DNA of 45,022 bases from an uncultured Verrucomicrobiales bacterium. Lineage in GTDB: Bacteria; Verrucomicrobiota; Verrucomicrobiia; Limisphaerales; JAYPXF01. The notes below the pieces were generated by a model, which was not told the origin of the DNA, searched no databases, and saw nothing but the letters and a program-made list of their open reading frames with translations. Both the position numbers and the translations under genes were made by a program. This document shows positions 6,007-14,185 of this stretch, in pieces (position 1 is the stretch's first letter; the number at the start of each line of letters is the position of its first letter). The stretch lies in NCBI GenBank assembly GCA_937893495.1, contig CALBIE010000514.1:1-45022 (forward strand), written 5' to 3'.

Positions 6007-7515
6007 ATGCCGAAGCGGACCGACATTCATTCAGTGCTGATCATCGGAGCGGGGCCCATTGTGATTGGTCAGGCGTGCGAGTTTGATTACTCGGGCACCC
6101 AGGCGTGCAAGGCGTTGCGCGAGGAGGGCTACCGCGTCGTGCTGGTCAACTCCAATCCGGCCACTATCATGACCGATCCGGAATTCGCGGATCGCACCTA
6201 CATCGAGCCGGTGACACCCGAAGTCGTCGAGAAAATTATCGTGCGTGAACTCGCCGAAATGAAGCGCACCGGTGCCGAGGGCAAACTCGTCATCCTCCCC
6301 ACACTCGGTGGCCAGACCGCGCTCAATACGGCGATGAAGCTGCACGAAAATGGTGTACTCGAGAAATATTCCATTGAGCTGATCGGTGCCAGCCCGGATG
6401 CGATTGAGAAAGGGGAAGATCGTCAGATTTTCAAAGATCTGATGATTAGCATTGGGCTCGACATGCCCATCAGCGGCACGGCCCATACGATGTCTGAATC
6501 ATGGGATGTCGCGACGATGATCGGTCGATTTCCTGTAATTATCCGACCGGCCTACACACTGGGAGGCACCGGCGGCGGCATTGCGTACAACAAGGAGGAA
6601 TTCGAGGAAATGGCGAAGCGCGGCATCGACCTTTCGCCGGTCAACGAAATCCTCATCGAGGAATCACTGCTCGGTTGGAAGGAATTCGAAATGGAGGTCA
6701 TGCGTGATCGGATGGACAACTGCGTGATTATCTGCTCGATTGAAAACTTTGACCCGATGGGCGTGCATACGGGCGACTCCATCACCGTGGCACCGGCGCA
6801 GACGTTGACGGACAAGGAATACCAGATCATGCGCAACGCGAGCTTTGCCGTGATTCGCGCGGTTGGCGTCGAAACCGGTGGTTCCAACATCCAATTTGCG
6901 GTCAATCCCGACAATGGCCGACTGGTCGTCATCGAGATGAATCCGCGTGTCAGTCGCAGTTCGGCACTGGCATCGAAAGCAACCGGGTTCCCCATTGCGA
7001 AGATCGCCGCGAAGCTCGCAGTCGGTTACACGCTGGACGAAATTCCGAACGACATCACGCGCGAGACACCGGCAAGCTTTGAACCGACGATTGATTACGT
7101 CGTGACCAAGGTGCCGCGCTTTGCGTTTGAGAAATTTCCGCAGGCCGATCCGACATTGAACACGCAGATGAAGTCTGTCGGCGAAGCCATGGCGATTGGA
7201 CGGACTTTCAAGGAAAGCCTGCAAAAGGCGTTACGCTCGTTGGAGATTGGTCGTTCCGGATTGGGCGGCGACGGCAAGCCGTGGCGGATTGGTGAGAATG
7301 TGTATGGCGACCGCGACATCCTGCCGCGCGATGTCATTATCCGAAAACTGACGGTGCCCAATGACGAGCGCGTCTTCTTTGTTCGCCACGCATTGCGCGC
7401 CGGAATGTCCATCGATGAGATCCACGATCTGACCAGGATCGACATCTGGTTCCTCGCGCAGATCAAGGAAATCGTCGATTGCGAAGAGGAACTGGCCGCT
7501 GTTGCTTCGGCTTGA
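6007..7515 (+). CDS. carB: Carbamoyl-phosphate synthase large chain, N-terminal half
   Basis: The protein makes the carboxyphosphate half-reaction domain of carbamoyl-phosphate synthetase, used for pyrimidines and arginine. It opens with [20 protein letters not shown], followed by the ATP-grasp features [42 protein letters not shown] and [20 protein letters not shown]. It ends cleanly at 502 residues, within what is the oligomerisation domain of the usual protein of about 1,070 residues. The carbamoyl-phosphate synthetic half and the MGS-like allosteric domain are absent. The next gene starts within 13 bp and is unrelated. Split carB genes are known (for example in Aquifex and Methanocaldococcus), so a second gene elsewhere is expected. 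Confidence 0.9.
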
Positions 7516-10866: not shown

Positions 10867-12327
10867 ATGAAAACAAAAACTATGTTCAAGAAACTGAAGT
10901 CATTCGTCCTGTTATTGCCGGCTGTGGCAATGGTCATGGCGGGCGGCTCTGCAACAGCTCAAGTAGGCTTTGTTGCGGCATCGACGACGGATTACAGCGG
11001 TGGTGTCGTTCGTATCTCAAAGACCGCGCCAACCTTGGTGGCGCTGGGCGAGGAATACGCCAATACCATTACCATCACGGCGGTGGACGACGCCGGCGAC
11101 GTCGCGGTTTCGGATGTCGTTCCCGGTGGTGCTACCTATGTGAGCAGCACACCACCCGCGAAAAAGGACGACGACAAGCTGACCTGGATGTTCGCTACGA
11201 TGAATCGCGGCGAAACGAAAACGATTACCATCAAGCTCAAAGCAGCGAAGGAAGGGAGCTACAAGAGTTGTGCGACCGTGCACGCGCTGCCTAAAGCGTG
11301 CGTGGTGACGGTGATTGGCAAGCCGGGGCTGAAGATCGTCAAGACGGGACCGACCACGGCCGTCATTCGAGAGAACATCAGTTACACGATTCAAGTGAGC
11401 AACCCGGGCAACATGGCGGCGCGCGGCGTGGTGGTAACCGACAACATCCCCGCCGGACTGTCCCACAGCACCGGGCAGAAAACGTTGACGTGGAACATTG
11501 GCGACCTGGCACCTAAAGAAAGCCGAACCATCCCGGTGGTGCTGCAAGGCGTCTCGATGGGCAAGCACTGCAACAAAGCGGTGGCCACTTCAAGCAATGC
11601 GGGCAAAGCGGAGGCCGAAGCCTGCACGACGATTCTCGTCCCTGGATTGGTCGTCACCAAGACCGGGCCGAAGCTGCAGTTCCTGGGCAAACTGGCCACC
11701 TACTCAATCGGGGTGACGAACAGCGGTGATACGACCTTGAACAACGTTGTGGTGACCGATCGCGCACCGGCAGCTACCACCATTCAATCCGCTCGCGGCG
11801 CGACGGTGACGGGCAACATTGCGGTCTGGCAAGTGGCCAGCCTCAAGCCGAAAGAAGGCAAAAGCTTCAACGTGGTGTTGACCACCATGATTCCGGGCAC
11901 GCACCCGAACAACGTGAGCGCAACGACTGCCGAGGGATTGACCGGCAGCGCGGTGGCGCCCACCAAGTGGGAAGGTATTTCAGCGCTGTTAATCACGATG
12001 GGAGATGATCCGGACCCGATCAAAGTCGGCGGCTCGACGACCTACACCATCAAGGTGACCAACCAGGGCACTGCGGATGACGCAGCCGTCAAGCTGATGG
12101 CCACCTTCGACGAGGAGATCACCCCGACGGGAGCAAGCAATGGCGGAGTCGTTTCGGGCAAGACCGTGACCTTCCCGGCGTATCCGACATTGGCACCCAA
12201 GCAGTCGTTCACCTACACAATCACGGCCAAGGGCGTGAAAGCGGGCGACCATCGCCTGAAGGTGACGCGGACCTCAAGAGACATTCCCAAGCCGACGACG
12301 GTGGAAGAATCGACCCGGGTTTACTAA
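10867..12327 (+). CDS. OmcB-like outer-membrane protein with DUF11 repeats (secreted copy)
   Basis: The 486-residue protein has a Sec signal peptide (about 1-32, ending SATAQ) and four successive DUF11/immunoglobulin-like repeats. It aligns over its whole length, from memory, with chlamydial OmcB, the large cysteine-rich outer-membrane complex protein. Matching landmarks are GATYVSSTPP, GLSHSTGQKTLTWNIGDL, KVTNQGTADDAAVKLM and the final (T/E)ESTRVY, which in OmcB is TENTHIY. OmcB has about two dozen cysteines; this mature protein has four. Its C-terminal 340 residues are identical in DNA to the next gene. Of three in-frame ATGs the one at 10867 is used, because upstream sequence is not signal-like. 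Confidence 0.88.
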   Translation: MKTKTMFKKLKSFVLLLPAVAMVMAGGSATAQVGFVAASTTDYSGGVVRISKTAPTLVALGEEYANTITITAVDDAGDVAVSDVVPGGATYVSSTPPAKKDDDKLTWMFATMNRGETKTITIKLKAAKEGSYKSCATVHALPKACVVTVIGKPGLKIVKTGPTTAVIRENISYTIQVSNPGNMAARGVVVTDNIPAGLSHSTGQKTLTWNIGDLAPKESRTIPVVLQGVSMGKHCNKAVATSSNAGKAEAEACTTILVPGLVVTKTGPKLQFLGKLATYSIGVTNSGDTTLNNVVVTDRAPAATTIQSARGATVTGNIAVWQVASLKPKEGKSFNVVLTTMIPGTHPNNVSATTAEGLTGSAVAPTKWEGISALLITMGDDPDPIKVGGSTTYTIKVTNQGTADDAAVKLMATFDEEITPTGASNGGVVSGKTVTFPAYPTLAPKQSFTYTITAKGVKAGDHRLKVTRTSRDIPKPTTVEESTRVY

Positions 12328-12365
12328 CCCGCGTCCAGGTTGAAATTACACGGCCGGCAGTCTTC
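11302..12365 (+). repeat. Direct repeat, copy 1 (1,064 bp identical)
   Basis: This tract is identical base for base, as far as I can read, to 13105-14168 (offset 1,803). It covers the last two thirds of the OmcB-like gene, its stop codon and the first stem of its terminator. After one mismatch in the terminator loop, identity resumes for 22 bases. Upstream of 11302 the two genes differ at many synonymous and replacement sites. Confidence 0.95.
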
Positions 12366-12382
12366 CGACTGCCGGCCTTTTT
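12352..12382 (+). terminator. Intrinsic terminator of first OmcB-like gene
   Basis: A perfect 11-bp stem (GGCCGGCAGTC and GACTGCCGGCC) closes a TTCC loop and is followed by five T residues. It begins 25 bp after the stop codon. The same element follows the second copy. Confidence 0.93.
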
Positions 12383-12510
12383 CTTGCCCGGAAGGCAGCC
12401 TATTCCAATCGTGACCCGGGCCGTGATCTAAAATAGTTGTTCACCATCGAGGTCGCACGCTTGACCGTATTCAGTCTGACAGACAGAATGGGGGAAATTA
12501 ACGCTTACTG

Positions 12511-14130
12511 ATGATAAACAAATACTTCAATCTGCTCGCGCTGGCGGCGACCGTAATTACCCTGACCAGCGGATGTGAGGTGGTGAAAAACCGCCAGGTA
12601 AAAGAGAGGACCGACGGCTATCAGCCGGGAATCGTCCTGACACCACAGGGGTACGATACTTGGGGTCGCCGCTGGGGAACTGCCCCGGTTGCCACGACGG
12701 TGGTTGCCAAGGCGGAGCCTAAAAAGCCGGAACCGGCGCCAGCCCCTCCCGTCAAGACTGTTACCCTTCCGACTCCGGCCACAGCCTCGGCTGATTCCAG
12801 TGGTGGAGTGGTTCGTATCTCCAAGGAGGCACCGGCACTGGTGGCCATTGATGAGGAATACACGACGACGATTACTCTCTACGCCGTTGATGCGGCATCC
12901 AGTATTGAAGTTGCGGATGTCATTCCCTCAGGGGCCACATATGTAAGCAGTAGTCCTCCGGCAACGCAGGATGGCAACAACCTCGCGTGGAAATTCCCTG
13001 CCATGGCAAAGGGCGAGACCAAGACGATTAAGGTGAAACTCAAGGCAGCAAAGGAAGGCAGCTACAAGAGCTGTGCGACCGTGCATGCTCTACCGCAAGC
13101 ATGTGTGGTGACGGTGATTGGCAAGCCGGGGCTGAAGATCGTCAAGACGGGACCGACCACGGCCGTCATTCGAGAGAACATCAGTTACACGATTCAAGTG
13201 AGCAACCCGGGCAACATGGCGGCGCGCGGCGTGGTGGTAACCGACAACATCCCCGCCGGACTGTCCCACAGCACCGGGCAGAAAACGTTGACGTGGAACA
13301 TTGGCGACCTGGCACCTAAAGAAAGCCGAACCATCCCGGTGGTGCTGCAAGGCGTCTCGATGGGCAAGCACTGCAACAAAGCGGTGGCCACTTCAAGCAA
13401 TGCGGGCAAAGCGGAGGCCGAAGCCTGCACGACGATTCTCGTCCCTGGATTGGTCGTCACCAAGACCGGGCCGAAGCTGCAGTTCCTGGGCAAACTGGCC
13501 ACCTACTCAATCGGGGTGACGAACAGCGGTGATACGACCTTGAACAACGTTGTGGTGACCGATCGCGCACCGGCAGCTACCACCATTCAATCCGCTCGCG
13601 GCGCGACGGTGACGGGCAACATTGCGGTCTGGCAAGTGGCCAGCCTCAAGCCGAAAGAAGGCAAAAGCTTCAACGTGGTGTTGACCACCATGATTCCGGG
13701 CACGCACCCGAACAACGTGAGCGCAACGACTGCCGAGGGATTGACCGGCAGCGCGGTGGCGCCCACCAAGTGGGAAGGTATTTCAGCGCTGTTAATCACG
13801 ATGGGAGATGATCCGGACCCGATCAAAGTCGGCGGCTCGACGACCTACACCATCAAGGTGACCAACCAGGGCACTGCGGATGACGCAGCCGTCAAGCTGA
13901 TGGCCACCTTCGACGAGGAGATCACCCCGACGGGAGCAAGCAATGGCGGAGTCGTTTCGGGCAAGACCGTGACCTTCCCGGCGTATCCGACATTGGCACC
14001 CAAGCAGTCGTTCACCTACACAATCACGGCCAAGGGCGTGAAAGCGGGCGACCATCGCCTGAAGGTGACGCGGACCTCAAGAGACATTCCCAAGCCGACG
14101 ACGGTGGAAGAATCGACCCGGGTTTACTAA
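12511..14130 (+). CDS. OmcB-like DUF11-repeat lipoprotein (second copy)
   Basis: The 539-residue paralogue begins with a lipoprotein signal (TVITLTSGC lipobox, Cys at about 22). A linker of about 70 residues rich in Lys, Pro and Ala then precedes the same four DUF11 repeats as the first copy. From about residue 198 to the end it is identical to the neighbour, while the first repeat is only about 70% identical by hand alignment. The mature form has the lipidated Cys plus the same four Cys. The Pro-rich spacer could let the repeats extend from the membrane, as in a lipid-tethered partner of the secreted copy. It has its own 183-bp upstream region and is followed by its own terminator, so it is probably a separate transcription unit. 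Confidence 0.88.
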   Translation: MINKYFNLLALAATVITLTSGCEVVKNRQVKERTDGYQPGIVLTPQGYDTWGRRWGTAPVATTVVAKAEPKKPEPAPAPPVKTVTLPTPATASADSSGGVVRISKEAPALVAIDEEYTTTITLYAVDAASSIEVADVIPSGATYVSSSPPATQDGNNLAWKFPAMAKGETKTIKVKLKAAKEGSYKSCATVHALPQACVVTVIGKPGLKIVKTGPTTAVIRENISYTIQVSNPGNMAARGVVVTDNIPAGLSHSTGQKTLTWNIGDLAPKESRTIPVVLQGVSMGKHCNKAVATSSNAGKAEAEACTTILVPGLVVTKTGPKLQFLGKLATYSIGVTNSGDTTLNNVVVTDRAPAATTIQSARGATVTGNIAVWQVASLKPKEGKSFNVVLTTMIPGTHPNNVSATTAEGLTGSAVAPTKWEGISALLITMGDDPDPIKVGGSTTYTIKVTNQGTADDAAVKLMATFDEEITPTGASNGGVVSGKTVTFPAYPTLAPKQSFTYTITAKGVKAGDHRLKVTRTSRDIPKPTTVEESTRVY

Positions 14131-14168
14131 CCCGCGTCCAGGTTGAAATTACACGGCCGGCAGTCTTC
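13105..14168 (+). repeat. Direct repeat, copy 2 (1,064 bp identical)
   Basis: This is the partner of 11302-12365. The left boundary is sharp: the preceding base differs, and the 60 bases before it carry several synonymous differences. The right boundary lies in the terminator loop (TTCC in copy 1, TTCT in copy 2), with similarity fading about 22 bases later. Confidence 0.95.
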
Positions 14169-14185
14169 TGACTGCCGGCCTTTTT
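14155..14185 (+). terminator. Intrinsic terminator of second OmcB-like gene
   Basis: The same 11-bp GC-rich stem as after the first copy, with loop TTCT and a five-T tail, lies 25 bp after the stop codon. The opposing dehydratase gene ends 34 bp further on. Confidence 0.93.

Follow-up and report, generated by a model that had tools for sequence, protein, structure and literature searches.

A tandem pair of OmcB-family proteins with paired cysteines and predicted isopeptide triads in an uncultured Verrucomicrobiales bacterium

The gene pair

The window considered here is a stretch of 45,022 nucleotides from an uncultured Verrucomicrobiales bacterium (positions 1 to 45,022 of contig CALBIE010000514.1, assembly GCA_937893495.1), and its subject is a tandem of two genes, A and B, whose products resemble OmcB, the 60-kDa cysteine-rich outer membrane protein (CT443) of Chlamydia. 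From their sequences, both proteins are predicted to be non-chlamydial members of the OmcB family, with cysteines that fall into conserved pairs and candidate isopeptide triads in two of their four domains. Both open reading frames (ORFs) lie on the + strand within 10867-14130, where the original prediction had placed them, and each is followed by its own terminator-like stem-loop. The features of the pair are as follows (A1 is a profile that combines the two window proteins with 12 relatives; residues in gene A numbering unless given for B).

10867..12327, + strand, gene A: secreted OmcB-family protein of 486 amino acids with 4 cysteines (ORF; four Pfam DUF11 [PF01345] stretches; PF03504 36.0 bits, cut-off 34.1; A1 profile 717 bits)
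10867..10962, + strand, gene A: predicted Sec-type signal peptide, residues 1-32, with putative cleavage site (sequence, hydropathy rule)
11002..11313, + strand, gene A: domain D1, PF03504-like, cysteine pair C135/C145 (Pfam, alignment, domain profiles)
11314..11634, + strand, gene A: domain D2, predicted isopeptide triad K159-D192-N236, cysteine pair C235/C253
11635..11970, + strand, gene A: domain D3, predicted triad K265-D298-N348, without the third cysteine pair (P347/P365)
11971..12324, + strand, gene A: domain D4, conserved C-terminus EESTRVY
12352..12377, + strand: terminator-like stem-loop 3' of gene A; base 12366 differs from the copy at gene B
12511..14130, + strand, gene B: lipid-anchored OmcB-family protein of 539 amino acids, lipobox Cys22 plus 4 cysteines (ORF; four PF01345 stretches; PF03504 24.1 bits, under the cut-off; A1 profile 746 bits)
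12565..12576, + strand, gene B: lipobox TSGC with putatively lipidated Cys22 (sequence, PROSITE-style rule)
12577..12804, + strand, gene B: Pro/Ala-rich variable linker from the lipid anchor to D1
12805..13116, + strand, gene B: domain D1, protein 69% identical to D1 of gene A, cysteine pair C188/C198
13117..14127, + strand, gene B: domains D2-D4, protein identical to D2-D4 of gene A
14155..14180, + strand: terminator-like stem-loop 3' of gene B

Gene A has an alternative ATG start at 10882 and an N-terminal extension of about 13 residues ahead of D1. The lipobox of gene B (LTSGC) has an unusual Thr at -3; lipobox calls follow a PROSITE-style rule, and 9 of 117 family rows received no signal call. 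The four cysteines that had been ascribed to both proteins are found in A (135, 145, 235 and 253), and B carries the equivalents of these (188, 198, 288 and 306) plus its lipobox Cys22. Neither sequence contains CC or CxxC clusters. The tandem of a secreted and a lipid-anchored version is real in this window, but it is not how the family is usually arranged: the window is one of 15 loci with tandem copies, of which six are near-identical rumen bins, and a mixed tandem is seen in the window and at L105, and partly at L107 and L135/L121 (the latter by cruder signal calls), with the other tandem pairs being secreted and secreted or lipid and lipid.

Membership in the OmcB family

The yardstick for the family was a single C. 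trachomatis OmcB sequence, written out rather than drawn from a database record; the scans described below gave no sequence titled chlamydial. This protein has 547 amino acids and 24 cysteines and scores 201 bits on PF03504 (Chlam_OMP6), over model positions 1 to 91. Since its cysteine count agrees with that given in PMC2615015, which describes 24 cysteines and a conserved part at 87-547, and its PF03504 score is this high, it can serve as a yardstick; the published count also bears out the figure of about two dozen cysteines assumed for OmcB at the outset. On the A1 profile the yardstick OmcB scores 428 bits, end to end, and when used as the query of a phmmer search over all ORFs of the loci then in the set, it scores A at 240.9 and B at 230.7 bits, as against at most 59.8 bits for generic DUF11 proteins. 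A profile was made for each of the four domains from 80 rows of the family, excluding the window and OmcB; D1-D4 of the yardstick OmcB score 85, 95, 92 and 128 bits on their cognate profiles and at most 59 on any other. When OmcB, A and B are each cut in four, the cognate profile scores best every time, in the order D1-D2-D3-D4, which bears out the claim that the repeats follow chlamydial OmcB in order. The likeness at the C-terminus also held: A and B share with OmcB four DUF11-type domains in identical order, a PF03504 first domain, a variable N-terminus, the GDAR motif of D4 and a C-terminus that fits E-(S/N)-T-x-(V/I)-Y, and E-(S/A)-T-x-VY is common to most family members.

PF03504 matches 53 of the 55 members of set A2 at E<=1e-3, with A above its cut-off and B below it, and is not specific by itself, as long generic proteins score up to 31.6 bits. 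This cross-matching, the abundance of DUF11 in the source genome (20 matches) and the general Ig-like character of the fold matches (see below) are what would be expected if A and B were generic DUF11 stalk proteins of the fibrillar-adhesin type, with a likeness to OmcB that comes merely from their repeats. Such an origin of the likeness is highly improbable in view of the gap between 231-241 and at most 60 bits, of the C-terminus shared by most members, and of the generic DUF11 ORFs: the 15 that gave hits all lack both the D1-D2-D3-D4 order and a match to D4, reading instead as D3-like repeat runs or single matches. A grouping with generic DUF11 proteins, named beforehand as what would refute the original prediction, was therefore not found, and the profile comparison with OmcB that it called for places A and B in the OmcB family by PF03504 and by OmcB-based scores. 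Judged by these sequence comparisons, A and B belong to a PVC-wide (Planctomycetota, Verrucomicrobiota and Chlamydiae) family of which OmcB would be the chlamydial branch. They fall outside the narrow chlamydial cysteine-rich OmcB class, which is defined by about two dozen cysteines at chlamydial positions, as they have 4 core cysteines.

Cysteine pairs

Cysteine columns were counted in 118 rows (117 members and the yardstick OmcB), and four column pairs account for most cysteines. Pair 1 (C135/C145 of A) is complete in 108 rows, has one cysteine in 1 and none in 7, with gaps in 2 rows; pair 2 (C235/C253) is complete in 77 and absent in 41, and pair 3 (P347/P365 in A) is complete in 58 and absent in 60, with no row having one cysteine of either. 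Pair 0 (T40/D75 in A) has both cysteines in 35 rows, one in 11 and none in 65, the remainder being gaps. On the tree, all 12 independent paths that differ both at a cysteine of pairs 1-3 and at its partner do so in the same direction (4, 3 and 5 for the three pairs), and in one further pair-1 path the partner does not differ. A pooled two-sided sign test over pairs 1-3 gives about 5e-4, no single pair being significant alone. Additionally, an AlphaFold2 model places the residues of pairs 2 and 3 opposite each other, in mirror-image positions on the strands of hairpins (200-210/214-225 and 312-321/327-337). Pairing in evolution together with this modeled placement is the pattern that intradomain disulfide staples would give.

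A and B have pairs 1 and 2. In the relatives nearest to them, L009 and L016, pair 3 is present as well, where A and B have Pro347/Pro365; pair 3 was thus probably lost in the window lineage, and the low cysteine count would be partly derived. This bears on the ancestral non-cross-linking role that had been proposed for the family. A non-cross-linking role is plausible, since every core cysteine of A and B lies in a conserved pair, but the four cysteines are probably not an unchanged ancestral state, and with one chlamydial sequence to root by, an absence of cross-linking in the PVC ancestor is no more than a possibility.

In the yardstick OmcB none of the 24 cysteines falls in a pair column, and every column that holds one has a cysteine in no more than 2 of the 117 members; placed on the model, which is 63% strand, 13 are in coil, 9 in strand and 2 in insertions. 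Going by this alignment, OmcB differs from A and B in more than the number of its cysteines, as all 24 are in other columns. A separate case outside Chlamydiae is a protein of 724 amino acids from Candidatus Uabimicrobium amorphum (L101, 2737-4989), which has 24 cysteines, keeps pairs 2 and 3 and is without the D3 triad, possibly an instance of parallel cysteine enrichment.

Isopeptide triads and fold

DUF11 has recently been renamed CLIPPER; a domain of this kind from fibrillar adhesins (PDB 9IFR, 2025) has an Ig-like CnaA fold and a Lys-Asn isopeptide between Lys715 and Asn806, with Asp748 as the presumed catalyst (PMC12617251). The corresponding arrangement, a Lys on the first strand, an Asp about 33 residues further on and an Asn on the penultimate strand, is found in D2 and D3 of both A and B, at matching places (K159-D192-N236 and K265-D298-N348 in gene A numbering). 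N179 and N285 were considered as the isopeptide Asn and rejected, as the residues given in PMC12617251 put the Asn on the penultimate strand, i.e., at N236 and N348. The triad is intact in D2 of 109 and in D3 of 104 of the 117 members, and in both domains of 102. The NCBIfam model TIGR04226 (Lys-Asn isopeptide domain) scores above its cut-off in A and B and matches 27 of the 55 A2 members at E<=1e-3. In the yardstick OmcB, Gln and Ile replace the two triad lysines of D2 and D3, and across the family triad loss is associated with extra cysteines when counted by rows (p 1.6e-4).

The structure prediction that had been called for yields confident Ig-like domains: the AlphaFold2 model of residues 33-486 of A has a mean predicted local distance difference test (pLDDT) of 94.5, with an uncertain arrangement of the domains. 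The CLIPPER crystal 9ifr matches D4 of A with a Z of 14.5 and a root-mean-square deviation of 2.3 Å over 116 residues, and its Lys-to-Asp spacing of 33 is that of D2 and D3 here. The matches listed for the fold are general Ig-like proteins only, which does not exclude other families, and a search of the PDB by sequence profile gave no match at E<=0.01. CLIPPER adhesins are further like A and B in having disulfides beside isopeptides (PMC12617251); they differ in building long stalks with adhesive and anchoring domains, whereas A and B have four fixed, mutually unlike domains that are not interchangeable repeats.

Spread and phylogeny of the family

An alignment-based scan of genome contigs gave 295 loci, of which the best 80 were used. 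Among these 80, no record is titled as Chlamydiae, and the named loci are from Verrucomicrobiota, Lentisphaerota, Planctomycetota (mostly Phycisphaerae) and Candidatus Uabimicrobium, with one Achromatium record. A scan of genome contigs with a single protein found no relative, and a scan of a plasmid collection no match; a scan of viral contigs turned up 3 loci, whose content is in no case chlamydial. Within the order, a profile search matches 50 of 146 genomes at E<=1e-30, some of the matches being partial, and 19 of 194 genomes of a phylum sample match at E<=1e-20, a number that falls to 15 when four matches inside other or fragmentary ORFs are set aside. Removal of window duplicates, of rows short of the profile ends and of those under 150 bits reduced 132 non-redundant hits to 117 members, including the window's two.

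The phylogeny across PVC phyla that the original prediction asked for was built from 83 rows including OmcB, left after thinning at 80% identity and removal of one truncated row by hand, with no generic DUF11 rows. In this unrooted tree OmcB attaches between the two halves of the family, one mostly of Phycisphaerae (20 rows, 100/100) and the other of Verrucomicrobia and Lentisphaera (62 rows, 59/73). With one chlamydial sequence to go by, this attachment point in an unrooted tree is about where vertical descent within PVC would place it. A rejection in the approximately unbiased (AU) test was discarded, as OmcB had been constrained with 12 rows that are themselves no clade; the full 20-row half and OmcB already form one side of a branch.

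Several records stand apart. A full-length member in a gammaproteobacterial record, Candidatus Achromatium palustre (L088, 2773-4380), falls among Verrucomicrobiota rows and points to transfer or contamination. Nine loci titled Klebsiella pneumoniae or Akkermansia muciniphila (L031, L037, L035, L041, L044, L056, L061, L072 and L073) encode close relatives and are probably misnamed bins. The source genome (G000) has two further full-length, lipoprotein-like paralogues, on contigs C656 (L173) and C101 (L174), with cysteine pair 1 only. A second, shorter class of about 400-450 amino acids, with only D3-D4 at the C-terminus, is found in the source genome (L175, G000:C654, 296-1543) and in several genomes of the order; in G321, G324, G288 and G325 it lies on the same contig as a full-length match and within about 650 bases of it. 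A viral contig (L178, IMGVR_UViG_3300045978_000397, ORF from 1677) encodes a short lipoprotein-like OmcB relative with D1 and D4 only, ending in EATSVY.

Proposed architecture and alternative roles

Taken as a whole, the account that we consider probable, with real reservations, is that A and B are self-locked rods that leave no thiol free, A being soluble and B anchored by a lipid. Four Ig-like beta-sandwich (DUF11/CLIPPER) domains would make up each short rod, which would be exported across the inner membrane; A would remain soluble and B be tethered by its N-terminal lipid via the Pro-rich linker. D2 and D3 would each be locked by a predicted Lys-Asn isopeptide bond, and D1 and D2 held by conserved disulfide staples. 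All core cysteines would then be spent inside the molecule, so that no thiol would be left for a cross-linked coat, and the rods would probably support or cover the outer envelope, or serve as stalks, without covalent links between them. Family membership, domain order, the pairing of cysteines in evolution, triad conservation and the predicted fold are taken directly from the data; from these we infer the formation of isopeptides and disulfides, the location of the proteins and their binding partners.

Several observations weigh against this account. D1 is without a triad and D4 without a candidate triad, and in a phylogeny-corrected test triad loss is not significantly tied to extra cysteines. 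Pair 0 co-varies poorly on the tree, its partner mostly not following, and the predicted template modeling score (pTM) of 0.67 leaves the domain-to-domain arrangement uncertain. No match to DSBA, VKOR or Thioredoxin_4 was found in the source genome (88% complete), and among its relatives DSBA occurs in only 2 of 12 genomes and VKOR in 3 of 13 genomes, the source included. On the chlamydial side, the comparison consists of one OmcB sequence, not drawn from a database record, and its branch in the tree is long (1.43).

It is also conceivable that A and B build an envelope lattice as in Chlamydia, where OmcB is cross-linked with MOMP and OmcA (PMC1403754, PMC2615015), through cysteines paired between molecules. 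Two partner sites on different chains would likewise account for cysteines being lost and gained together, and a soluble and a lipid-anchored protein in tandem recall OmcB and the lipoprotein OmcA (PMC1403754). However, the model puts the two residues of pair 2, and likewise those of pair 3, on opposing strands of a single hairpin, the residues of pair 1 are just 10 apart in sequence, and the absence of CC and CxxC clusters from A and B likewise argues against a lattice, which we regard as unlikely. Somewhat less doubtful is an adhesin pair, in which the rods would be short surface stalks presenting the variable N-terminal part, like the OmcB N-terminus in Chlamydia adhesion; this overlaps the account of self-locked rods. 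OmcB adhesion maps to the variable N-terminal 100 residues (PMC2229832), CLIPPER domains form stalks (PMC12617251), B has a long Pro-rich linker, and the differences between A and B lie in D1 and the N-terminus. Set against these points, the Pfam scan found no adhesive domain, and gene A has almost no N-terminal extension to present.

If A and B are self-locked rods, OmcB offers a contrasting state. It is unlike them in its 24 cysteines outside the family pair columns and in the missing isopeptide Lys of D2 and D3; with the staples and both lysines gone and 24 cysteines at new places, the C. trachomatis yardstick sequence fits a switch from within-domain locks to between-molecule links. OmcB may accordingly have arisen from a self-locked envelope rod by loss of the D2/D3 isopeptides and intradomain staples and gain of about 24 new cysteines, irreversible internal locks giving way to reversible, redox-controlled intermolecular links, an origin that we put forward tentatively. 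If true, such reversible links are what a cell needs to switch, in the course of development, between its infectious and its dividing form. This reading predicts isopeptides in non-chlamydial homologues and none in chlamydial OmcB.

Relation to earlier work

A cysteine-poor OmcB relative outside Chlamydiae is not new in itself, since a homologue without cysteine, CAD72259 of Rhodopirellula baltica, has been in print since 2006, its meaning being called unclear (PMC1403754). The same work treats OmcB as nearly specific to Chlamydiales and leaves the planctomycete homologue unexplained. Compared by description only, CAD72259 is like A and B in being a non-chlamydial OmcB homologue, and unlike them in its length of 907 amino acids and its mainly C-terminal similarity; no mechanism was reported for it. 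What is new here are the paired cysteines, their lack of overlap with the chlamydial cysteines and the isopeptide triads, for none of which a prior report was found in the literature searched, which leaves out most subscription journals; within the same bounds, no work joining OmcB, isopeptide and Chlamydia was found. OmcB is one of the main structural proteins of infectious chlamydial cells, and a PVC-wide family whose predicted internal locks are conserved supplies the missing comparison for its origin.

An identical tract in the two copies

The two genes share a tract that the original prediction had missed:

11302..12365, + strand: 1064-bp identical tract, copy 1 (D2-D4 and the start of the terminator)
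13105..14168, + strand: 1064-bp identical tract, copy 2

None of the 1064 bases differs between the copies, and the identity ends inside the terminator, where base 12366 differs. In the shared part just upstream, 10990-11301 (most of D1), 98 of 312 bases differ, with 37 synonymous and 32 nonsynonymous differences in 102 codons, so that protein identity steps from 69% in D1 to 100% in D2-D4. Ten other tandem loci were examined, and none has such a step. The D2-D4 identity most likely stems from recent gene conversion. Alternatively, the assembly may have merged two diverged copies, in which case the equality of the tandem would be biologically meaningless. The source genome is fragmented (900 contigs), assemblies are known to merge near-identical repeats by error, and an A-type gene of the sister genus ends at a contig end inside D2; the distinct flanks, the sharp boundary and the one difference kept inside the copied terminator speak for two real copies and make an artefact rather doubtful. 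That truncated gene, from a genome of the same family (L169, G002:C290, 1-723, - strand), has an A-like secreted N-terminus and D1 and is cut inside D2, as would be expected if a near-identical D2-D4 repeat were present there too.

Other genes of the window

A comparison of the 19 other genes of the window with nine related regions gave just one CarB-like match and hence no conserved neighborhood. At 6007-7515 the window has a CarB-like ORF of 502 amino acids that comprises only CPSase_L D1-D3 and is followed by an unrelated phosphoesterase, which points to a split or truncated carB.

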